From assembly GCA_009602725.1 (NCBI GenBank), contig WELB01000306.1, forward strand, positions 27,353 to 70,906: a DNA stretch of 43,554 nucleotides. Reading direction: 5' to 3'. Position 1 is the first letter of the stretch. Every line of letters begins with the position of its first letter. The stretch comes from Spirogloea muscicola. Lineage: Eukaryota > Streptophyta > Zygnematophyceae > Spirogloeales > Spirogloeaceae. This document shows, piece after piece, positions 19,574 through 43,554 of the stretch. The position numbers and the translations under genes are program-made. The notes beneath the pieces were generated by a model. That model was not told where the DNA came from, did no database searches, and saw only the letters and a list, made by a program, of their open reading frames with translations.

Positions 19574-20298
19574 NNNNNNNNNNNNNNNNNNNNNNNNNNN
19601 NNNNNNNNNNNNNNNNNNNNNNNNNNNNNNNNNNNNNNNNNNNNNNNNNNNNNNNNNNNNNNNNNNNNNNNNNNNNNNNNNNNNNNNNNNNNNNNNNNNN
19701 NNNNNNNNNNNNNNNNNNNNNNNNNNNNNNNNNNNNNNNNNNNNNNNNNNNNNNNNNNNNNNNNNNNNNNNNNNNNNNNNNNNNNNNNNNNNNNNNNNNN
19801 NNNNNNNNNNNNNNNNNNNNNNNNNNNNNNNNNNNNNNNNNNNNNNNNNNNNNNNNNNNNNNNNNNNNNNNNNNNNNNNNNNNNNNNNNNNNNNNNNNNN
19901 NNNNNNNNNNNNNNNNNNNNNNNNNNNNNNNNNNNNNNNNNNNNNNNNNNNNNNNNNNNNNNNNNNNNNNNNNNNNNNNNNNNNNNNNNNNNNNNNNNNN
20001 NNNNNNNNNNNNNNNNNNNNNNNNNNNNNNNNNNNNNNNNNNNNNNNNNNNNNNNNNNNNNNNNNNNNNNNNNNNNNNNNNNNNNNNNNNNNNNNNNNNN
20101 NNNNNNNNNNNNNNNNNNNNNNNNNNNNNNNNNNNNNNNNNNNNNNNNNNNNNNNNNNNNNNNNNNNNNNNNNNNNNNNNNNNNNNNNNNNNNNNNNNNN
20201 NNNNNNNNNNNNNNNNNNNNNNNNNNNNNNNNNNNNNNNNNNNNNNNNNNNNNNNNNNNNNNNNNNNNNNNNNNNNNNNNNNNNNNNNNNNNNNNNNN
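19574..20298. other. assembly gap (725 N)
   Basis: A run of 725 N separates the 5' ends of VPS20 (-) and the CBM coiled-coil gene (+). Flanks on both sides are very G+C-rich. The gap therefore hides most of the shared upstream region, and possibly a 5' exon of the CBM gene. Confidence 1.
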
Positions 20299-20458: not shown

Positions 20459-23400
20459 ATGTCCGCCATGGGGAGCTCAGTCCCGGAGCGCAGTGTAGCG
20501 CCAGAGCGCAGCTTCTTGAGCAGGCAGGGCGCCGGATGCGGCCAGGATCGCGGCTGCCGGGCGGCGGTCGTCCACCTGAGCGAGCGAGGCTGTGCTCGAG
20601 CTGCGGCAGCCTCTCGCAGAGCTCGGGCAGCCGCGACCTGGACGGCCGCGGATGGCGCTGCGAGGAGCAGGAAGCTGGCCAAGGCGGCGGAGCAGCTGCC
20701 AGCCACGCTGCTGTTTGGAGCCGGATTTCACCGGCGGCGCAGGAGCAGGAGATGCCAAGCAGTCTGCCGAGGCCATGCCATGGACTCTGGCCTGCAGGCC
20801 GTCGCCGGAGCGTCCGCTGTGTACGGGTGCACGGAGCAGTCCCGCGACGAAGGGGAGACGCTCCAACAGCTTGTAATCCTGGCCGACAGGTGCGCTTGAG
20901 TCCACACTATTATAGCATGCTGACCTCCAAAGCCTGCTTGACCGTCAGGTGTGTGGAGATGGTCACAGTTAGTCCTATCACCGCTGCCCTTGCTTCACCG
21001 AAAAGCTGAGACTACCGGAAAGAAAGCGGCTTTCATAAGCCTCTGTGACAGTTGGTTTGAAAGGAAACGTGTGTCCGATTATACCGAGATGTGTCCAAAT
21101 TGCACCTAACTTTCAAGGCCACTCAATTTGCTGATTGTCTTATGGACCAAGTTGCACTCAACGGTTTAGGACAGTCAAACTGCTGACTGTTTCATGCACC
21201 AACAATAGCACTATCTACACTGAGACGAATTGCTTGGCACAGTTGATCGTCTGACAAGTACGCCTGACATCTGAGCAGTGTAAGGAGCTTGAAGGAGGCA
21301 GTCAGCGTCAGCGACCGAGGAGGGGATGACGCCGGCACGTTCCGGCCTGGCCTTGAGATGAGGGACAGGGTGGACAGGCTATCAGATCGAATCTCAGTTC
21401 TGCAGCAGTATGCTTCACAGCACGCCATGACAGAGGGCCGGGTGCCTACTCAAGTCACTGCCACGCTTAAGGTACAAGCTACCCATGTCTCCATCATGCC
21501 TATGTGCTACGTGATGCTTGCTTATAGAAAGTATGGGTTCAATGATCATGGACAGATCACATGTAGTGTTGCTTATGCGGCTGATTGTGTTTTGAGGGAA
21601 TGTGAGCCGTACCTCATGTGACAAGTAGGTGGGGTCTAAATGTCTTTGTGCCCCCTTCTTGGTGCAGGCTCTGCAACGTGAGCACACTTCGCTTGCAAAC
21701 ATCATACGGATGGCCAGTGAGGCTGCAGGGAAGTCGCCATTCAGACCAAGAGTTGAGCGTGCTTCTCTATCCAAGAGGAGCCTTTATGATGAGGATGACA
21801 GGGACGGAGCAGTGGCCAATAGCATGCATCCAGGCAAGGGCGTCAATGGTACCCCTGGTACAGGTCCGCCAGGGATGTCAGGTATTGCTACGCCAACGCG
21901 AAGAGATGCTGAGGCAGCTGTTAACGGACACACCAGCCAGGATATGAAGCTTATGGCTCCCACTAGCACAACATCAAGCACAAACTTCCCAGCCGCGCCT
22001 GACAGTCAGGCTAGGTCACCTGCACCGTACAATATGACTTCGACTGCAGGCTCAGTAAGCACTCAAGTGACCACTTCTCATAGTTTCGCTTTTACCTGCT
22101 GAGATAGAGAGCATGATGTCTGCAGGACAGGACAAGCAAGGCGAATTGCAGAGCAATAGTGAGCAGGAAGTAGAGCTTGGAAATTGCTGTACTTGGTACC
22201 TGCATATCAGCTGATTGGATGTCATGGCAAGGTCAGATGCAGTAAGACAATCATATCTAAATTGTTACATTGAAAAGAATTTGGTGTACAGCGTGCTAAT
22301 GCTGTTCTCCTTGCATCCTTCCGTACAGAGTACCTCACCATTAGCTGCCTTCCGAGCTGAGATTGAGAGACGAGTAGTTGAGCAGGTGAGCAGCTGAAGT
22401 GCCTCTTAGGAGGCAAGGCTAACCCACATACTCTTTGGGGTTCTTGCCTTGTTGTCTCAAGCCCTCTCTGGCTTCTCTGTTTTCTCTGTTGTACATTTTA
22501 GCGAATCACATCTGCAGAACTCATTGTCCTGTCTGAGATAGAGTATGTAGCAGTTGGTGTCTGCTTTACCTCTAGCTGTGATTGGGTGCGCCTCACTGTT
22601 ACAACTTCGTCCTATTGCAGCTCGCCGGACAACGACCTGGAGGGCAAGGTCCACCCCCAAGCCCTCAGACGCAGACTGCCAGCAGTCCGACAAGCTCTTC
22701 AACTCCTCCTCCAACAACGAACCAGCCATCATCAAGGACATGGCCTCCAGCCAATGTGTCAATTAGTCAAGCTCAGCAGAATATGAATGGGCAGGATACG
22801 AGTAGCGTGAACGGTGTGAGGAGGCGTACAGCGTCTAAGAAGGGTGACAGTAGGTCAGAGACGTTCCAGAGCGGTGTCGAGAGTGCTGGGCTACCCCAGC
22901 CTCAGCGTGGCTGGTTCGTGGAGCCCCCAAATGGCCCTGCTCTCCAGCAAAGGCAGGGCGTTAGGCCATCCGTTCCGGGGGGTTGGGTGCCGCATATGTC
23001 AGAGGCAGTTGGCAGTGTGGTAGATGGTGAAGTGGGTCAAGTGAGGAGAGTTGAGGGGATGAAGGGCGCAGCTCAGGATGTCAACGGCAGGGCGTCTCGC
23101 GAACACCCATACGGCACAATCAAGGTGAGAGACATTACCAATGCACACCATGTGCTCATAAGGACGCTGAAAGAATGCCACTGTGGTGCTATTGAGTGGC
23201 AACAGTATATTGTGTCTGCTGTTGAAGTTCTCGTGCACATAGATTGACAATAGGCTGCCTAGCTTGCTACACAGGGGCCTTTGCCAGGTCAAGACGCCAA
23301 GGACTTGTGGTTCTTGGGCAACCCCCATTCTCTCAGGTCATACTGTCACTGTGGCAATCTTGCTGACGTGGCATGTGCTTTTCTTTGCTGCAACGTATGC

Positions 23401-26400
23401 ACTGTGCTAGGTTGGCCTGTTTGAGATGCAACGCATTGACGTCTGTGAGATGCAGATTGCACTGCTAGGCTGCTGATTCTGCACATCTTGTTGGCTGCTC
23501 TTAGGGCTGTGGAAGTCGAAAGGAAAGCAAGGATCTTGGCGATGGACGAAGTTGTGAGGACTGCAGAAGTAGAGCGGCTCAGAGAGGAGCTTGAGAGGTC
23601 AAAGTGGGAGATGAAAAATGTGCGACAATTGGAAGCGATTCGTGCCGATAAAGCTGAGGGTCGAGTACGGCAGTTGGAGAAGGAGCTTGCACAGAAGGTC
23701 CCAATGGAGTTGCATGCTGAGCTGGTGCGTATTCATCATCCACCACTTGATTGCTTGGTAGTCCTTCTCCAGTCCCACAATCAATGACTGATACTGGTGC
23801 ACTGACTACCTCCACTACCCCTTGGAGGAGCCCATCCTCCTCTCCAGGCGTCTTGTCTTCGCAAAAGCATGTCAATTATAGATTGTTGTCATTACCTGTT
23901 ATGTTGTTGAATGCTTGCAAGGCCACAAGTCAGAGATTCCTGTCTTGCCGGAATGCTACTGTTAGCTGGAATATCACAAGCATGTCAACTTATATAAGTG
24001 GCACTGTGCAGGTGAAGAAGGTGAGGGAGCCCCTTGTTGCTGCTCGCCTCGAAGTAGTCCAGCTGGCAGGGGAAGTCCGGGAGAAGGAGGCTCTCCTTGG
24101 TTCTGTGAAGAGCGAGCTTCTTCAAGAGAGAGAGCACCTGGTGGAGAAGGTACAGTTACATCTCTTACCTATACATATTTATATAGCCGTATATTCATTC
24201 CCTAGCGATTCAGTGGACAAGCCGTTGTACAAGCATGTGCTGCAGTTGGCATTGCATGTCTTGCCTGCAACACACATAGCAAGCTGAGATTATGTCTGAC
24301 GCCAACTATCCGCTTTTCAGCCATGCCCTGTGTCCAACTCAACTTCAAGCAATCTCTCAGGAGGTTTGTGCTGACCAAGCCTCATAATGCTGGTGTGATT
24401 GAAGGTGCGGGCTTTGACAGGAGATGCAGCAAGGATGGTCACACTGGATGAGATGGAAACAGCAGTCAAAAGAGCCGCCGAGGAAGTGGAGCGGGAGTTG
24501 GTGAGGACGCAGGAGCAGGCTGCCAAGCTCGTCGTGGAGCTGGAGAGGAAGGAGCGAGCCCTGCACTCCTTCCGGGCTGCCTGGGGGGCCGAGCGGCAGA
24601 GCATGGTGAACGAGCTCAACGCCACCAAAGAGAGGCTGGCGGCGCTGGAGAAGGAGAGACTCGAAGAAGGGCCGAGCGTGCTGCGGAGCTTCACTGGTGC
24701 CAGCAAGACGCAGCAAGTCAAGGCCGAGGCCTTGCAGGAGGAGCTGGCGAGCATGGAGAGCGAGATGGCGGTCCTGGACTTCCGGCTGGAGACAGAGGAA
24801 GGCTTGCTGGCGACTCTCGAGACCATGGAGAGCGAGGAGGGCAGCGAGGATGAGATTGCGATGAGCGCCGACAGCCTCAACGCAATGCTCAAGCAGGAGA
24901 GCAAGTCCGGGACGCTCGAAGGGAACGAGGTGGGCATCAGGCTCGAGGCGCTGGCTGCTGAGAAGGCCGACAGCGCCGTCGCGAAGCTAGTGGCCGACCT
25001 TTCCGCGCAGCTGTCAGAGGTCAAGCGGGAGGTGAAGACCCTGGAGAAGGCGAGACAGGAGGCGGAGGAGAAGGCAGCCAAGAGGGATGGCCTGGCTGAG
25101 CTTCTCGCCCGCCGGCTGCGGAAGGTCCTGCCGACCTTGCCGGGCCTCCGCCAGATGGCTGAAGCAGGGCAGCTGGGCTCGCTGCTGAGCAAGCTGGAGA
25201 CTGCAACAGGAAATCCCAACTTGTGGAAGGAGAATGTCGATGGTGCCGTCAACCGGGTGGAGGCAGTCATGCAAGAAGCCTCAGAGGCTGCCTTGCAGTC
25301 TGGGCGAGCCTCTGGCGAGGTCACAAAGGGCGACATCAACGGGGGAGGCGCGGGGTCCGGTGCAGGGAAAACTTCACGCGTGTGGTGGGACGTGGCGAGC
25401 CCGGGGGAGTGGAAGCTCTTCAGGGACGGGAAAGAAGTGGGGAATGACAAACAGCAGGATAGTGAGGTGCCGCACACCGAGGACGCTAAGGAGAAGCCGA
25501 CCACAAGCAACGGCATGGTCATGGGCGCCCAGGACATCCCTGCAGCTGAACAAGCAGTAGCTGAAGTAGATGACCAGATAGGAAGAGAGATAGAGGAGGC
25601 AGACCATGACCAAGCATTGGCAGAAGGAGCTCTTGTTGAAAGCGAGTCGCTCGAGCAACCTGCAATTGAAGGTAAGATTCATCAAGTTTCTGCTTGACTT
25701 TTGTTTCATAGGCATTGCAGCAATAGCATGCTGTGTACAACACTAGGACATGGGGCGCTCAGGACAGTGCAGTGTACACGAGAGTGTGTGCTCCAAAGCT
25801 CACTCATGTGCTTTTGCAGAACAAGGAGGAGGGACACCAGAGATGGAGTCTGAAGTTGGCGGGGACGCGGCCTTAGTGAGTGACGTGGTCCCCGCAACTT
25901 CAAGCATCACGCTGCTCTACGAGACTGGATGGGAGCAGGCTTACCTACATTATTCAGCCGATCACGGGAGGTATGAGCGCACCATGTCAAATGCTCTGAC
26001 AAGTGACATGCACACCTTGCTCTGACATACCTAGAATATTTTGTGTCCAGACTGACGGTATGTTATGAGCTGACATGCAAGCACTTCCCTGCCTTCGATG
26101 TGGGGGCGTGAGAGTTTGATCCTGAAAGTTGGGCCCCACCCATGTCTTGGTGCATGCTTGCTGCCTGATCACATGCCATCCACTGAGGTTAGCTATCTTC
26201 TGGCTTTCTCCTTAATTACGCTAAGCCGGTACCCTGATGCAGTTGGACGGAGCCTCCGGGGTTGCTCATGGAGGACGTTGGAGAGGGCCTGAAGGTGAGG
26301 CAGTTGCAGGAGCCCTCTGCAGTTGCTTGCAGCAGCCATATACTTTGCACTTGTCCTGGTCAATTTAGTAGTCTACACTGTGCTGACATGCATTAGAGCG

Positions 26401-26842
26401 TTGGCGTTTTGGTGCAGACTGTGACTGTTCCTGCTGCGATGCTCGAGTTTGTCCTCACCAATGGCTCAGGAAGTTGGGATAGGTGAGGCCTTCTGCCGAG
26501 TGCTTCAGCTTGACATACCTCGAGGCTGCATGGCCGCATTTCTTTGTCTCCAGAGGATCAGTAATGGCATTACCAGTACAGGTCAAGCCATCAGCTCACA
26601 GCAGTGAGGTGCCTGAGTTCCCGGAGCATCCGCGCAACTCAGGCGCGATGCCTGGCAAGACAGTGTGGCCATGTAAGCATGGTCCAGTCAAGAGTAGACC
26701 TCATCAGGCCTGTCCATATTGATTTGTGGTTGTCCTCTGCCCTGTGTGCAGCTTGCCAGGAAGCTCGAACTACTGGATTGAGGAGGGGGCCCACTTTCAT
26801 CTCTCATCAGGCCGCATCAGCAGACTTGGCGGGGAGCCATGA
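20459..26842 (+). CDS. coiled-coil protein with transit-like N-terminus and C-terminal CBM25-type starch-binding domain
   Basis: Thirteen exons join in frame to 1205 residues: 20459-20889, 21279-21471, 21668-22054, 22329-22385, 22621-23124, 23275-23336, 23505-23724, 24012-24149, 24405-25671, 25820-25970, 26243-26294, 26418-26482, 26752-26842. Residues 1-110 are rich in Ala, Arg and Ser and poor in acidic residues, like a chloroplast transit peptide. Residues about 340-545 are Pro/Ser/Gln-rich linker, ending in LWFLGNPHSLR from a 62-bp exon. Residues about 546-905 form a long coiled coil. A Trp-rich patch (WWDVASPGEWKLFRDG) lies near 990. The last 90 residues are a CBM25-type module: SSITLLYETGWEQAYLHYSADHG, split over exons with WTEPPGLLMEDVGEGLK, FVLTNGSGSWD and a final NYW. 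CBM25/53 modules bind starch. Together these features suggest a plastid scaffold that binds starch granules; no catalytic domain is present. The start is uncertain because the gap lies 160 bp upstream. Confidence 0.85.
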
Positions 26843-27947: not shown

Positions 27948-30900
27948 CTAGGAGTTGGTAGACAGGAGATTGTCAAGTGAAGAGACGTCCAATGCGGGGA
28001 AGGCCTTGACCACCAACCGCACAAAGTCGGCAAGCTTCCGCGCCTCAGCCTCGCTGGGCGCCTGATCCAGCAAGAGAGCAAGAGTGAGAGCAAGAGCAAG
28101 AGAGGCTAGCCCCACATTACTTGGAGCAGCGACAAGATTACCATGCGCCAGCACACAGAAGGCAAGAATGCATGCCAAGCACTAGTGATTTTGTCAAACC
28201 TGTCTTACCACAAATCTGACAACTTCTGACAACTTTATCCACTCCTTCCAAGGAAAGCCACAAGGCTGTATCTCACCTCAACATTCAAGGGAAGAACAGG
28301 ATCGTGCAGTGACAACCGAAGGAGGAACCAACCTCCATAACCAGAAACTCTGACCTGCAATGCATCAGCGGCAGATCAGCTCTGAAAGAAGTAATCGTCT
28401 GACAGTGTTCAGCAAGCCATGAGACGATGCTGACTGCCACTGCCAGGCAACAAGAAGAGACGACAATAGATGTAGGAATTGGACAAGAAATGGACACCCG
28501 CTCGATCCAGCGTGCAGCTACGAAACAGAAGCTCCTCAGTAACTTTGGAGACTGTATCCTTGTCAAACTGCAAGCTTGAGTCTTCGTGATTTCCTTACGC
28601 ACCCCTTCATGATTCACAGGAGCCTTTTGGAGCTGTGGGTTGGTGGGTAGCAGCTCCTCAAGCTTCACAAGGACTTGCTGCCCATACTCCTTGAAGCCCC
28701 TATAAAACCACACCAGGGGACATCAGTTGCCGGTGTCATGTAAGTCTACCGGCATCGATCATGGTCATGAATAGAGCCACTACAAAGGGTTATAGGCAAT
28801 GCCAGAAAGGAAATGCCTCAAACCCCAAGAAGTCATGCCAGTGGACTGCCAGGTATCGGTTTCCTGGGATATTATAGGTCATGGAAGGACTCGCCAACCA
28901 GTCCTACAGATGTTGAAATTTACCCTGCTGGTATGTCCTTGTGGTCCTGGTTGATCTTGAATCGCATTTCAGTGCTGTAACCAGGTTGCTCCAGATCTGC
29001 TATCATCCTAGTGAGAACCTCACTGCCCTTGCCTTCTCCAGCAGCGGCCGCTGCGGCCAGCTTGATGAGCAGCTTGACCTGAGAGCCCAACCATCGGCTC
29101 ACTATATCAGCTGACACGAACTTGAGAAGTCACACTACATTGAGGCGGCTAGATGGAAAATGCTCTCAGCCCACACTTCTTCACAAAAGAAAGGCGGCTA
29201 GATGGGACTGCTCTCTGACTACACCAGTCTACAGAAAAGTCACTGTTCCTTTGCCCGTCTCTTGTATTGCCTTGTCATTTGTATCCTTGGTCAAAGTGAC
29301 TGACTGTATGTTAAGAAGACTATTGGGCGTCAACTAATGGCTTACCATCAAGTAGGCACCATCATCAAGCCAATGATTTTCTTGCATAGCTCCATGGCCA
29401 CTAGTCTCAATAGCTAGATGGCATTCCTCACCGCTTGCATTCTGTGTAATCAAGTTGATCACAGCACAATATAAGGATAGCTTCAAAAGAAATGCCCGTA
29501 TTCAAGCCAGTTCACATGACAGGATATGAGGCTGACTTAAGCAAGGCTCCCCAGGCAAGAAAATAGGTGATAGTAGCTAGGAGATAGTAGCAGGAAGGGG
29601 ACGTAAGATGAAGGTGATGGGTACGAGATTGAAGAGGTGACAAACCAGTCTGACACCCTCATCAATGACATTCTTGTATCCTCGCTTGAAGCGATGGTGC
29701 TTGCCTCCTGCACTTGGCAGCCAAAAGGACTGACAGAGACAGTGTTAGTGCTGGACTTCAAGTCCTCTGCCAATCCTCTTAGATCACAAGCAAAGCAGCA
29801 AGGGATCCGGTGAGTGCCACAATAAGATGATATTCTGACAGCATACCAAGCTTCTTCTCGATGAAGTTGGTAAGGCCATCAGAAGTGACACTGTCAGTCA
29901 CTATTGTTGTCCCGGGGTGCTGTTTACCACGCCACCAAGGTGCAGCAAAGTGGTCACAGGCCGGCTGTAAGTGAGATGAATTATCCCTGCTAGCTAAGTA
30001 GCTAACAAGCAGTATTTTACATTGAGCTCTTGTTCTCTGCGAAGGAGCATTTGGAAGAGGTTGAGCAGCCGTTCCCCTTTCAGCAGTAATCACAATATGC
30101 AAGCAGCACAAGCAGTAAGCTTTTGCTGGAGCAGAGAGGGCATTGTACCTGTTCCAGCACAATTGCTGCCATAAGGGCTATAAGACCATTACGATTGATT
30201 TCAGAACCACCAGAATCAACAGCTGCAGCTCTGCGATGCCCAAACGGAGGACACTACTTCAAGAGCACGTACGTGATGAGATGCTTGGACTACATGCTGC
30301 TCCTGCCAGAAAGTACACTTACAGTCATTCTCAGTATTGGCCCCATGCTTGTACATCCCCTATGACCTCCTAACGCCATAAGCTTTGCACATAAAGAAGG
30401 CATTGTTACACTTGTCTTACCTGTCAACATCAGTGTCAAAGATGATGCCGAGGTCAGCCTTGTTGTCGAGCACTGCTTTTGTGACAGCAGCCATGGCCTT
30501 CTTGTCTTCTGGGTTGGGGATATGATTGGGAAACATCCCTGCCATCGCATACAATATCATGACTGAATCATTGTCGCACTTTGCGTTTTCAAGCCCACAA
30601 ACCTATAGCATGTCATGAGGTGTACCTCATGCATTCACAGTAGGCTGCTTGACGATGGCACACCTAACTCGTGCAACAACTGCACAAGCCGTATGCAAGG
30701 CAGTTTTTTTTATCCTTATCCACAAGGCGACACTACCGAATGAAACAGACTCTGACAAAAGGAAAGAAGAAGGGTACCATCAGGGTCAAGGAACTGACTG
30801 CCGGTTGTTATGGCACCCAGAGGCTCAAGCACAGAACCCTGCCCAAGCCAAGATGACCTTAGTGACCGTGCCCATTGGTTGCGCTCGAGTCTAAACCAGT

Positions 30901-33141
30901 AGAAGATGTCAAGCAAGAGCGTGCAGTCTCGCAGGCATGCACTTACCGCAAAGAAACCACCTGCACCGTTGCCGGCATCCACTAAAATGTGAAATCCATC
31001 CAAAGGTCTCTCTGCAGAAAGCTCATACAAGGCAGGGCGTCGGAACTTGCCACTGAAATAAGAGCAGCACAGTAGCATAGACATGCCAACACGGTGCTTC
31101 ATTGAGACCTAAGCCAATGTCATTACTCACTCTCCAGACGGGCAGCCCATCTTAAGCTGCTTGTCCCTAGAAAGTCTCAGGAGAAGTAGCGGCCAGTCTT
31201 TCCAGGCAACATAGCAAGTACAGCATGGATCTTGAGGTCGTAGTACAAGGATCCTCCTCACCTTTGCCTTGAGCTCCTCGTCGGACAGCCTCGACAAGGT
31301 CTGACGAGTACCTCTCCATGTAATTAACTGATGGCACAGAGCCCTCACGTTCATTGGTCCGAGCACTACTTGTTGACATCTTGTCGTAGACTGAGGCTGC
31401 TCGAGCCAGGATGTCAGCGATGTCGCCTTTGCTGGCCCCTCCCTTGGACGTGAAAAACTTGAGTCCATTGCGATTGTAGGGAAGGTGACTTGCTGATGGA
31501 GGAGAAAAACAGGGCCACAGCCAAAATTAGAGATTGAAAATGCAGGAGGTGCAAGTTGGTGATAATCGAAGGCGTCTGTTATGATTGAGCTGTGAGGCTA
31601 CCGTTGCGCAGTATATTTGAAGGACGTAGCAGACCTGTAATCATGATGGCTCCATCTGCAGGGCACAAAAGGCTCTCATCTTGAGTTATGGTGCTATTGA
31701 ACATTGCCGGTGTGGATGCCAAGCTGCAATGACAACTTCAATCTGATAAGTAACATTGGCCACATACGTACACTTCATCTCTGCATCCACTGTCTTGTAT
31801 ACCTCAACACCTGCTGAGCTTACAACACTGCACATAGCAGCACAGGGCAGCTTCTTCGTAACTGCTGAAGGACATGAGGAGTATAATAATGATAAATCCT
31901 CTCAAGGACAAGGTGGCAAGAGGATGTGCATTAAAGCACACTATCTGGAGCACACTAGAATATGCAGAGTCCTGGCTTCTGATGACTGGCTGCTTCTATC
32001 TTAGGATAGGAGCTTCGACAACTTTAGGACGGTCTTGGTGAATCATACCCATAGAAGACAACATCCTGACCAGCAGAATGTATTCCACGAGCTGCTGCTT
32101 TCTGCATGACAGTAAGAATAGCATATAAAGACACTTGCATGAACTTCGTCAGATGCGGAGCTTGTATTGAAAGACACCTTACGGCATCAGCAAAGGATAT
32201 TAGCAAATAGCTGCTGGGATGCTGGCAAGATCAGTGTGCAGCATGCAACCTTGAGCTTGTCGGCAGATATCCGTGAGTCATGACCAATTGATATGACAAG
32301 CTTGCGGTCGCCAGCCTGAAGCTTCTCAGACAGGAATGATGCAAAGGCAGCTCCAATGGCCTCCGTTGCAGCCTCGGTCAGGTTCACATGTTCCCCTTCC
32401 ACTCCCTCCAGAGCAACACCACGAATGTCGCTGCAGTATTCGTAGTGTAATTCCAGTCAGGTGCACAAAGCAGTCAATGACTGTCCTCAAGCTTGTGAGG
32501 CGGCACAATGGACCTACTTGCAGTCGCAGAAGACACAGACGCGAGGAAGCAGAGAATGATACCTGCCATTTTGCAGCTTCTCAAGATTGACCTTCTCCAT
32601 TGCTGCAGGTTGATCTGCAGTAGACACTGCTGCTGCAAAGCAATGGGCAAGAATGCACATGAGATGAACAGGTGATGTGCAGCTTCTGTTGGCCATGACA
32701 GTCTGATGAAGCGGCTTCCAGCTATCTCCAAGGGAGTTCATGGACCATGAAGAATGAAGTTGCAATGGCTTCTTCCAAGTTGGCAAATTTGCACTGACCC
32801 TGCACAAGTGGTGATCTAGCAAGCGCCCTCTGTTTGAGCCAGAGCTGGCCCGCTATGGGAGTGGCCGCTGCCAACTGAAGTTTGGATGGCTTGACCGCAG
32901 GTGCAGACAAAGGACCGCGCACACGGACAGTCTGGGTGCGGGGCAATGCCAGCGCAGCCTGAGAGGAAGGGGCTGCCGAGGTGGAAGACGCAATTGTACA
33001 GACGGCGGCAGCTTTAGCTGTAACAACCAGTCGAAGACAAACTGCTTCAGACGTCAACTTATGTGACCATGAGGCAGTCACGTGTGCAGGGATGCTGCCA
33101 CCATCTAAGCTCAGACTGGGAAGGTTCCACGACCAGAGCAA
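27948..33141 (-). CDS. phosphoglucomutase/phosphomannomutase-family enzyme, plastid plant type (5' end unresolved)
   Basis: Alpha-D-phosphohexomutases move a phosphate between C1 and C6 of a hexose through a phosphoserine. Sixteen exons after the first join in frame: 32632-32563, 32430-32250, 32101-32049, 31723-31635, 31492-31262, 31011-30947, 30838-30778, 30538-30421, 30230-30149, 29919-29847, 29707-29646, 29441-29346, 29078-28924, 28699-28603, 28354-28277, 28061-27948. Family signatures are present in order: the active-serine loop MITASHLPYNRNG, the metal loop IIFDTDVDR, the sugar-binding loop IETSGHG and the phosphate-binding end VRVSGYGG. VDAGNGAGGFFA and VTDSVTSDGL match the plant plastid group (Arabidopsis At1g70820 and At5g17530, by memory). 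Exon 1 ends at 32799 and encodes an Ala/Ser/Arg/Pro-rich transit-like stretch, but its frame holds no ATG before a TAG near 33217. A further upstream exon is therefore needed; an ATG at 33256 is in another frame. The substrate is not determined by the sequence. Confidence 0.93.
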
Positions 33142-41377: not shown

Positions 41378-43554
41378 TTAGGTCTCCTCAGTGGCCTTCT
41401 TCTTCTTGGGCATCCTGTAGCCCCCGACAACGCAGGCATGGTCGCGCTCAAACGGCTCCAGTGTCAGCTGCTCCGTCGGCTTGAACTGCTCCTGCTGCAG
41501 CTTCTTCACCTCCTTTGCAAACACCGCCTCCGCAGGCACCGTGGAGTCAATGCAGTTCGCCTGGCGGGATCCATGGCGAAGGAAAAAGCCAACAACACGT
41601 TAGCCTCCTGAAGTGTGTCTCACAGTCTGATCAAACCAATACTGCTTGATACTAGTTGTCCCACTTCCGGCATGCAGCCTTGCAAGTATGCCATTTTGTC
41701 AAGGTCATGAACTGCAAAAAGACGTCACTACATTGAAGCGTTCTGCCCTACTTTCTGATTGTTGTGCGGCGGTGGATATGATGCTGCAGAAGGCTGCCAA
41801 GCAGGCAAACGGTGCAGAGGCAGACCTTGATGGAGATGACAAAGTGGCCACCATTCTTGAGAAAATGGTGTGCATTCAGGGCCAATATGCGCGCCTGCGG
41901 CCAACGAAAGAGCGGTGCACCGAGAGGGAGGGAGGGGGGCCGCAAAGTTATGGTTTTTCTGAGGCAGCATCAAGATTAATGAGCCACAACTACCAACACG
42001 AGCAAACAAGGGGCAAGTGTAGTATGTCTGCCCCTTGCTAGAGATTATGGAGGTTGGCCCTCAAGAGCAGGCAAGAGTTGCCGGCAAAAGCGTCAGAGCG
42101 TGGTGCTCTCAAGTACAGAAACCTGAAGGGGAATCCACTTGCCTCCTCATTCGCTTCATTTGACTCTTATCTTCCAGTATATTTATGCGCTGAATTTGAC
42201 TCTTATCTTCCAGTATATTTCTTTCTAAGTACAGTACTTGTAGCTAGGGAGTAACGGCTTGACGACAGACAATTGCTGCCAGATGCCAAGAAGCAGACCA
42301 AGATTGGCTGACAGCACTGTCTCAGTGCTGGTCGGCTGTCGAGGCGGGCAGTGGACTAGTCACCTGGTCAGGCTGCGCAACGTCGGCGAACACCGTGTCG
42401 ACCATGCCCACGAGCATGCGGTAGCGCGTGGGGTGCCGCGCATCCTCGATGATCGGGATCACGTTTGTGCGCTTCTTGGCCATGTTCACGAGGTCGCGCC
42501 CGCTCCGGTGCGAGAACTCCACCGCATACACCACGCCTGTCTGGAGGTGGGGCGCAGAGTTGAGGTCAGACGACACAAAGCTGGCCCATAGACAGTGTTC
42601 GGCTGAGGCAACGCAAAAGTCAATGAAGCCTTATGCTGACAAGAATCTGTGCATCCGTGAAGTGGCGGTGCACGAGAGGACGTACGGGGCCGATCACGTC
42701 GGAGACGTGGGAGACGGTGGTGCCAGAGGCTGCGCCGAGGTACAGCACGTGGTCGCCGGGTTTCTGGGTGAGGCGGCGCCGCGCTCAATCACATGTGGGC
42801 GTGCACCTTACTGTGGCGGCAAGCCCAGCATTGGCGCGCACCGCCAGGTCGTTTGGCAATGGAGGGCTCACGATCCAGATGTTGTCGACGCCGCCGAGGA
42901 TGGCGGCGGCGAGCTTGGAGCGGAACGGGTTCCACACGCGGTACTCCGTCTTAGTCCCCTCCTCCACCTGAACCCCCAGCAAGCCGCAACCACCTTGAGC
43001 GCCCAAGACATGGCTTTTGCGTCGAGCTTGGCGACGTGGGTCTGCTTAAGAAGCTCGACGGAGGCGGCTCCAAGCAGCGGCGGCAGCGGCAAGGACGGAA
43101 AAGCTTGCGTGTATTGAGATAGTGAAGGCCAAAGTTGCCAAGTACAGTGGCAAGCACATCTGCTGACGTGCATTACCCACATTACCCGCTCAGTAAGGTA
43201 ACCGCGGGTCAGCGCATAAAGGCCGCTAATTGATAAGCATCAAGCGCTAATTGATAAGCAGAGGGGGAGGCCGCACCTCGACGTTGATGCGCTTCTCGCC
43301 GTAGACGCTCTCGCCGGCGACGAGGTTGCGCGTCACCAGCGCGTCCTCCTTGCCGCGCGCGATGAACACGCCCTCGTGGCGGTGCTGCTCCACCAGCACC
43401 CGCGCGCCGCCCTGCAGTGGCGGTGGGGCTCAGAAGTTTAAGGGTTTGAGGGTCAGCTGTGGGCACGGCGGGGACTGCGGCGGCGGTCATGGCGGTGCAC
43501 CTTCATGCCACCGCGCCCGCCGCGACCGCCGCCGCGCCCGCCGCCGCGGGGCCT
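41378..43554 (-). CDS. FBL: fibrillarin, rRNA 2'-O-methyltransferase (N-terminus cut by window edge)
   Basis: Fibrillarin is the methyltransferase of box C/D snoRNPs in the nucleolus; it methylates rRNA ribose 2'-OH groups guided by snoRNA. Seven exons are visible on the minus strand: 43554-43501 (partial), 43411-43277, 42967-42872, 42763-42686, 42540-42364, 41894-41826, 41560-41378, giving 263 residues. The first visible exon is Gly/Arg-rich ([14 protein letters not shown]), the end of the GAR domain, whose start lies beyond the window. Then follow [39 protein letters not shown], the SAM-binding [43 protein letters not shown] and the end [20 protein letters not shown]. All junctions are in phase. 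Four introns were scanned for C/D boxes and none was convincing. Confidence 0.97.
42158..42220. repeat. 27-bp direct repeat, two exact copies, in a fibrillarin intron
   Basis: A 27-bp segment beginning ATTTGACTCTTATCTTCC occurs at 42158-42184 and again at 42194-42220 without mismatch. It is in the intron between the fifth and sixth visible exons of fibrillarin. Confidence 0.9.
43107..43226. repeat. dispersed repeat, copy B, inside a fibrillarin intron
   Basis: This is homologous in the same orientation on the + strand to 3055-3181. The shared blocks are GCGTGTAT, GCCAAGTACA, GGCAAGCACAT, ACCCGCTCAGTAA and GTCAGC. In this copy it lies within the intron 42968-43276, antisense to fibrillarin. 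Confidence 0.65.
43224..43260. repeat. 16-bp direct repeat adjoining dispersed repeat copy B
   Basis: CGCTAATTGATAAGCA occurs at 43224-43239 and 43245-43260 with 5 bp between. It starts at the end of the dispersed repeat and may mark its border. Confidence 0.85.

Follow-up and report, generated by a model that had tools for sequence, protein, structure and literature searches.

The gene described here, from the alga Spirogloea muscicola, probably encodes a scaffold made of a long coiled coil and a starch-binding module, which is nucleus-encoded and probably imported into the plastid and which would place starch synthesis or starch granules. It lies in a stretch of 43,554 nucleotides, analysed as a whole and called the window below (contig WELB01000306.1, here C306). 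The parts of the mechanism already in hand are the structure of the gene, the purifying selection that acts on it and the membership of its C-terminal module in family CBM25, with the ligand-site residues. The features of the gene are as follows.

20459..26842, + strand: whole gene, 13 exons, 1205 residues; spliced here, structure common to two homoeologues
20459..20782, + strand: residues 1-108, Ala/Arg-rich, transit-peptide-like by composition
20783..21781, + strand: residues 109-246, exons 1-3, near-invariant block
21782..23322, + strand: residues 247-540, linker rich in Pro, Gly and Ser that contains tryptophan motifs, defined by composition and dN/dS
23323..25307, + strand: exons 6-9, residues 541-965, extended helical region resembling a coiled coil, defined by dN/dS, a heptad test and AF2
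25368..25457, + strand: residues 986-1015, KTSRVWWDVASPGEWKLFRDGKEVGNDKQQ, invariant island within a variable acidic linker
25900..26842, + strand: residues 1114-1205, exons 10-13, CBM25 module and tail, defined by Pfam, PDB and alignments

Gene structure and genomic copies

Splicing of the gene reproduces exactly the model of a sequence-only reading that had proposed 13 exons in frame and 1205 residues: the ATG is at 20459, the stop codon ends at 26842 and 12 of 12 introns are GT-AG. A run of N at window positions 19574-20298 lies directly 5′ of the gene, and the promoter region is partly unreadable. The genome searched (153 Mb, 471 contigs) holds three copies. With the protein as query, 39 matches were obtained among the best candidates scored, confined to contigs C306, C224 and C62. 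In addition to the window copy, they define copy A on C224 (L021) and copy B on C62 (L022), loci that share 87-91% DNA identity with the window. Projected onto these two loci, the exons encode 1203 and 1196 residues, each with a single terminal stop, and splice sites, exon boundaries, frame, start and stop are kept in both. In all three copies the ATG is preceded by 21 open codons and, further upstream, by an in-frame TGA.

Exons and introns have changed in different ways. All length differences between exons of the three copies are multiples of three, corresponding to in-frame indels, whereas 9 of the 12 introns display at least one difference that is not divisible by three (introns 3, 4 and 5 differ by multiples of three only); all 36 introns are nonetheless GT-AG. 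Exons that preserve the frame, introns that drift and a low dN/dS together provide strong evidence, independent of RNA data, for one coding gene. The gene is real, and the observation made from the letters of the window is confirmed. Matches to C224 extend through the fetched flanks of the window (10.4-19.6 kb, 20.3-37.2 kb and 41.0-43.5 kb), so that the window and C224 are homoeologous segments; a tandem array of these two copies is ruled out by the matching flanks.

Selection along the protein

Constraint is unevenly distributed along the protein. Values of dN/dS were calculated by the Nei-Gojobori method with our own script and are given in the order window-A, window-B, A-B; for the whole gene they are 0.24, 0.19 and 0.25. 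The p values come from a column-shuffling permutation of the longest invariant run per region, with six regions tested and p uncorrected.

Residues 1-108: dN/dS 0.54, 0.19, 0.47; p 0.03
Block 109-246: dN/dS 0.02, 0.00, 0.02; p 0.47
Linker 247-540: dN/dS 0.35, 0.32, 0.46; p 0.17
Helical region 541-965: dN/dS 0.07, 0.10, 0.05; p 0.03
Acidic linker 966-1112: dN/dS 0.63, 0.43, 0.48; p 0.02
CBM and tail 1113-1205: dN/dS 1.21, 0.22, 0.46; p 0.78 (CBM)

The first 108 residues comprise 21 basic and 6 acidic residues (net charge +15), with 19 arginines and 23% alanine. The N-terminus, described as transit-like in the sequence-only reading, is thus positively charged and rich in Ala and Arg, and would be compatible with a plastid transit peptide. 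It is followed by the most constrained part of the protein, block 109-246, in which a single one of 138 columns varies among the three copies and which is absent from the feature list of the sequence-only reading. Searches with this block gave no credible match in the PDB (best E 0.068) and no Pfam family over cut-off (best E 0.016). Among the tryptophans of the protein, 14 of 15 are invariant in the three copies.

The region 541-965 is probably helical, with breaks. A home-made heptad test, with half-overlapping windows, reaches z of at least 2 in 9 of 30 windows starting at residues 547-953 against 2 of 55 elsewhere. AF2, run on exon 9 alone from a single sequence without alignment (mean pLDDT 58.6), models long helices at roughly residues 666-758, 765-806, 812-831, 839-905 and 935-966. 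Taken together, model and heptads support, but do not prove, a broken coiled coil. The long helical region proposed from the letters alone is supported; the clean single rod of about 360 residues has to give way to about 425 residues (541-965) with breaks. Weak Pfam matches to TssC and PriC in this region both remain below their cut-offs. CBM_25 is the sole Pfam family over cut-off in the whole 1205-residue protein, and no recognised enzyme domain was found over cut-off, in agreement with what had been claimed.

Beyond the helices, residues 986-1015 form an invariant run of 30 residues in the acidic linker (permutation p 0.02). This island contains WW...PGEW...DGK, shows weak short strands in the AF2 model (at low confidence) and corresponds to no known family in the Pfam search of the protein. 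Given that six regions were tested, the island is suggestive only.

The CBM25 module

Profile and structure searches agree on the nature of the C-terminal module. In the whole protein PF03423 scores 30.6 bits (E 4.6e-7, residues 1116-1188, cut-off 27.3), and 37.7 bits (E 2.8e-9) against the domain alone; the modules of the three copies reach 37.7, 40.0 and 36.0 bits, all over the 27.3 cut-off. In the PDB, three solved CBM25 chains are matched, with E from 1.6e-12 (2c3v) to 2.2e-9: 2c3v, the CBM25 of Bacillus halodurans (PMC3398936), comes from an alpha-amylase G-6, and 2lab and 2laa are two modules of a beta/alpha-amylase. Identity amounts to 34-41% with the solved CBM25s and up to 44% with other bacterial ones over the best segment. 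Residues H1130, W1138 and W1174 (H17, W25 and W61 of the domain) are the same in all six sequences aligned, the three copies and the three solved modules. They align with chain positions 26, 34 and 74 of 2c3v, which we take to be the His/Trp/Trp ligand-site residues of BhCBM25.

When genomes of bacteria and archaea were scanned, 418 relatives were found among 577 stretches. The same His/Trp/Trp residues occur in 80 of 80 bacterial modules, these being the best 80 of the 418, with the reservation that H1130 and W1174, but not W1138, are in part imposed by the patterns used for searching. The CBM25 module read from the sequence alone is confirmed; the tryptophan of ‘NYW’ is however not required, since W1184 is replaced by leucine in copy A. 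By sequence, the C-terminal module is a member of CBM25, and its predicted binding to starch is well supported. Transfer of CBM25 from bacteria to the alga is possible. Viral contigs searched with the CBM, as a single sequence and as an alignment, contained no relatives. A PF03423 search of the whole genome gave no match, which in our reading results from introns that split the domain. The 14 control genomes gave none either, and for this reason the genome-wide zero is no proof of absence.

Selection on the CBM is weaker than on block 109-246 and on the coil region. Between the window copy and copy A, the CBM has accumulated 12 non-synonymous and 3 synonymous changes, which may indicate weak selection on starch binding in copy A. 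The CBM of copy A is the most drifted of the three, yet its three ligand-site positions are unchanged; judged from these substitutions, a relaxed or diverging function is possible. An adapter for starch breakdown, or a binder of another glucan, e.g. of the cell wall, with a CBM25 whose ligand has changed, is improbable. A precedent is found in the CBM53s of Arabidopsis starch synthase III (SSIII), which bind xylan, pectin and cellulose at least two-fold better than starch in vitro (PMC6243121), but the algal protein retains the CBM25 ligand-site residues, and inspection by eye reveals no signal-peptide-like hydrophobic stretch at its N-terminus.

Distinction from starch synthase III

SSIII resembles the algal protein in that coiled coils and starch modules are united in a single protein, and differs from it by carrying CBM53s and GT5/GT1 domains, neither of which the algal protein has. 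The border between CBM25 and CBM53 deserves attention. The Pfam CBM25 model has been used in one study to retrieve starch synthases (PMC6109180), which implies that the families are related and that their border is blurred by that model alone. Direct comparison separates them. Against the algal module, the best bacterial CBM25 scores 64.9 bits and six CBM53 pieces of the same genome at most 3.6 bits, a comparison that covers 6 of the 9 CBM53 matches (the three on C27, with loci on the other strand, were dropped) and in which some pieces are cut by introns, which depresses their scores. PF16760 (CBM53) matches neither the protein nor the modules of copies A and B; an SSIII exon of the same genome gives 45.2 bits against it. 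The profile check proposed for the module has therefore come out for CBM25, with the CBM53 model unmatched. By sequence, the module is a CBM25 proper, distinct from the CBM53 that the SSIII of this genome carries. A recent origin of the CBM by copying out of SSIII is rejected on the scores of these 6 of 9 pieces.

Two neighbouring genes misjoined into one model, or a broken SSIII deprived of its catalytic half, is a very improbable origin. The N-terminal part of SSIII also contains coiled coils and CBM53 modules (PMC6109180), which gives the idea its appeal. Against it, the frame stays open across intron 9 in all three copies, as the claim of one gene had implied, and the stop codon after the CBM is conserved in all three. 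Moreover, the module is a CBM25, the CBM53 triplets with their GT5 exons sit on other contigs, and downstream the first gene encountered, of PGM/PMM type, runs convergently.

Genomic setting and starch machinery

This convergent neighbour (window 28923-32456, - strand) encodes PGM_PMM domains I and II, of the phosphoglucomutase/phosphomannomutase type; that a sugar-phosphate enzyme adjoins a starch-binding protein is possibly due to chance. A fibrillarin exon occurs at window 42325-42630, - strand (PF01269, E 5.4e-29), and open frames at 41381-43429 may be part of the same gene. Overall, a Pfam family was found in 4 of 7 neighbouring pieces and none in 3 of 7. On C224, a starch synthase exon (KVGGLGD, PF08323) is located 18.8 kb downstream of copy A on the same strand (C224:90323-90391 and lower coordinates, - strand). 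Its linkage was left uncounted as a conserved one, the C306 stretch beside the window reading N.

Starch synthase (GT5) exons are present on 13 contigs. In our own grouping by match pattern, C39/C42/C8, C27/C282/C418 and C31/C92/C218 form triplets, C50/C90 resemble a pair, and C214 and C224 are single. CBM53 gives nine matches in the genome, three each on C27, C282 and C418, where they adjoin GT5 exons as expected for SSIII. The ten CBM20 matches come mainly in threes, with one single. AMPK1_CBM, a Pfam family that presumably takes in the PTST modules, gives 22 matches, 11 of them over cut-off, among which there may be PTST, LSF1 and kinase subunits. Because exons for CBM53, AMPK1_CBM and CBM20 are present, the protein probably supplements the usual machinery and replaces none of it.

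The same genome searches bear on the identity of the host. GRAS domains give 92 exon matches in the genome and none in 14 control genomes (those named being bacteria and archaea). Among green algae, GRAS genes point to Zygnematophyceae. Together with the contig triplets, they suggest that the host is most likely a streptophyte of this class and not the chlorophyte that the sequence-only reading implied. That interpretation is therefore partly supported: one gene, the long helical region and the CBM25 stand, the host is corrected, and plastid import and a role at granules or pyrenoid stay predictions. Genome triplication has been reported for Spirogloea muscicola (PMC7994812).

Comparison with known systems

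SAGA1 and SAGA2 have no known enzyme domain. PTST3 carries a CBM48, and in both PTST2 and PTST3 the starch module is C-terminal and the protein shorter than 1205 residues. As in the algal protein, a coiled coil is combined with a starch-binding module in SAGA1/SAGA2 of Chlamydomonas and in PTST2/PTST3 of land plants (for SAGA1/SAGA2 and PTST2, PMC13167743). Differences lie in the accessory parts: the SAGA proteins, described in Volvocales only, have CBM20 and Rubisco-binding motifs (PMC13167743), and PTST2 has CBM48 (PMC6243121), whereas the algal protein has a CBM25, an N-terminal block and a length of 1205 residues. In Pfam searches, it has no match to CBM20 (PF00686) nor to CBM48/AMPK1_CBM (PF02922, PF16561), in line with the early claim of a module unlike those of SAGA1/2 and PTST2/3. 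Lacking CBM20, CBM48, CBM53 and GT5 alike, it is placed in none of the SAGA, PTST and SSIII groups. Bacterial CBM25s (2c3v, 2laa, 2lab) share the module itself, but the solved ones belong to amylases and the algal one sits on a coiled-coil protein. The best reading by analogy is that the protein would work like SAGA1/2 or PTST2, but with a CBM25.

These analogies suggest two narrower versions of the scaffold reading, whose probabilities overlap with it. One is a granule-initiation factor like PTST2/PTST3 that brings an SS4-type starch synthase to malto-oligosaccharides independently of a pyrenoid. PTST2, which associates a coiled coil with a CBM, binds SS4 and malto-oligosaccharides (PMC13167743), and GT5 exons occur on 13 contigs; on the other hand, with AMPK1_CBM exons in the genome, PTST may already serve. 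This version is possible, if unlikely. Slightly more doubtful is a convergent tether of the pyrenoid starch sheath, in which the CBM25 would anchor the sheath and Rubisco or a pyrenoid linker would be bound by the conserved N-terminal block or by the tryptophan motifs, much as SAGA1/2 act with other modules. Mougeotiopsis is reported as the only known zygnematophyte without pyrenoids (PMC9632326), and a 2026 paper by the SAGA authors speculates that algae outside Volvocales use unrelated counterparts with carbohydrate-binding domains (PMC13167743). The invariant tryptophans and the island 986-1015 would fit such a tether. Conversely, the known Rubisco-binding motif is described from Volvocales alone (PMC13167743, PMC10473226), linker 247-540 has no invariant run longer than chance would give, and a pyrenoid is itself presumed for this alga.

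Proposed mechanism and significance

For the general scaffold, the following sequence of events can be envisaged. The nucleus-encoded protein would be imported into the plastid, where its long coiled coil would form an oligomer. Several C-terminal CBM25s of low affinity would then together grip alpha-1,4-glucan, either malto-oligosaccharide or the surface of a granule. The near-invariant block 109-246, and perhaps the island 986-1015, would hold a partner protein that serves as the address, with the outcome that starch synthesis or granules are put at a chosen site. Work on bacterial modules is consistent with this scheme: a single CBM25, with one ligand site, binds granular starch with a Kd of about 30 uM, and a CBM25/CBM26 pair with a Kd of 0.63 uM (PMC3398936). 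With low affinity for a single module and a gain upon pairing, one CBM25 on a long coil makes sense as a multimer. In potato, an expressed tandem CBM25 accumulates in starch granules (PMC5715617).

Among the open-licence papers listed in searches for this architecture, none describes an algal protein that joins CBM25 to a coiled coil, and none of the titles listed deals with how streptophyte algae position their starch. With three gene copies now at hand, direct testing becomes possible. A review of starch-biosynthesis enzymes names CBM20, 45, 48 and 53, and CBM25 is not among the families it names there (PMC6243121); CBM25 on a coiled-coil protein in a eukaryote that makes starch would therefore extend that list by one module.
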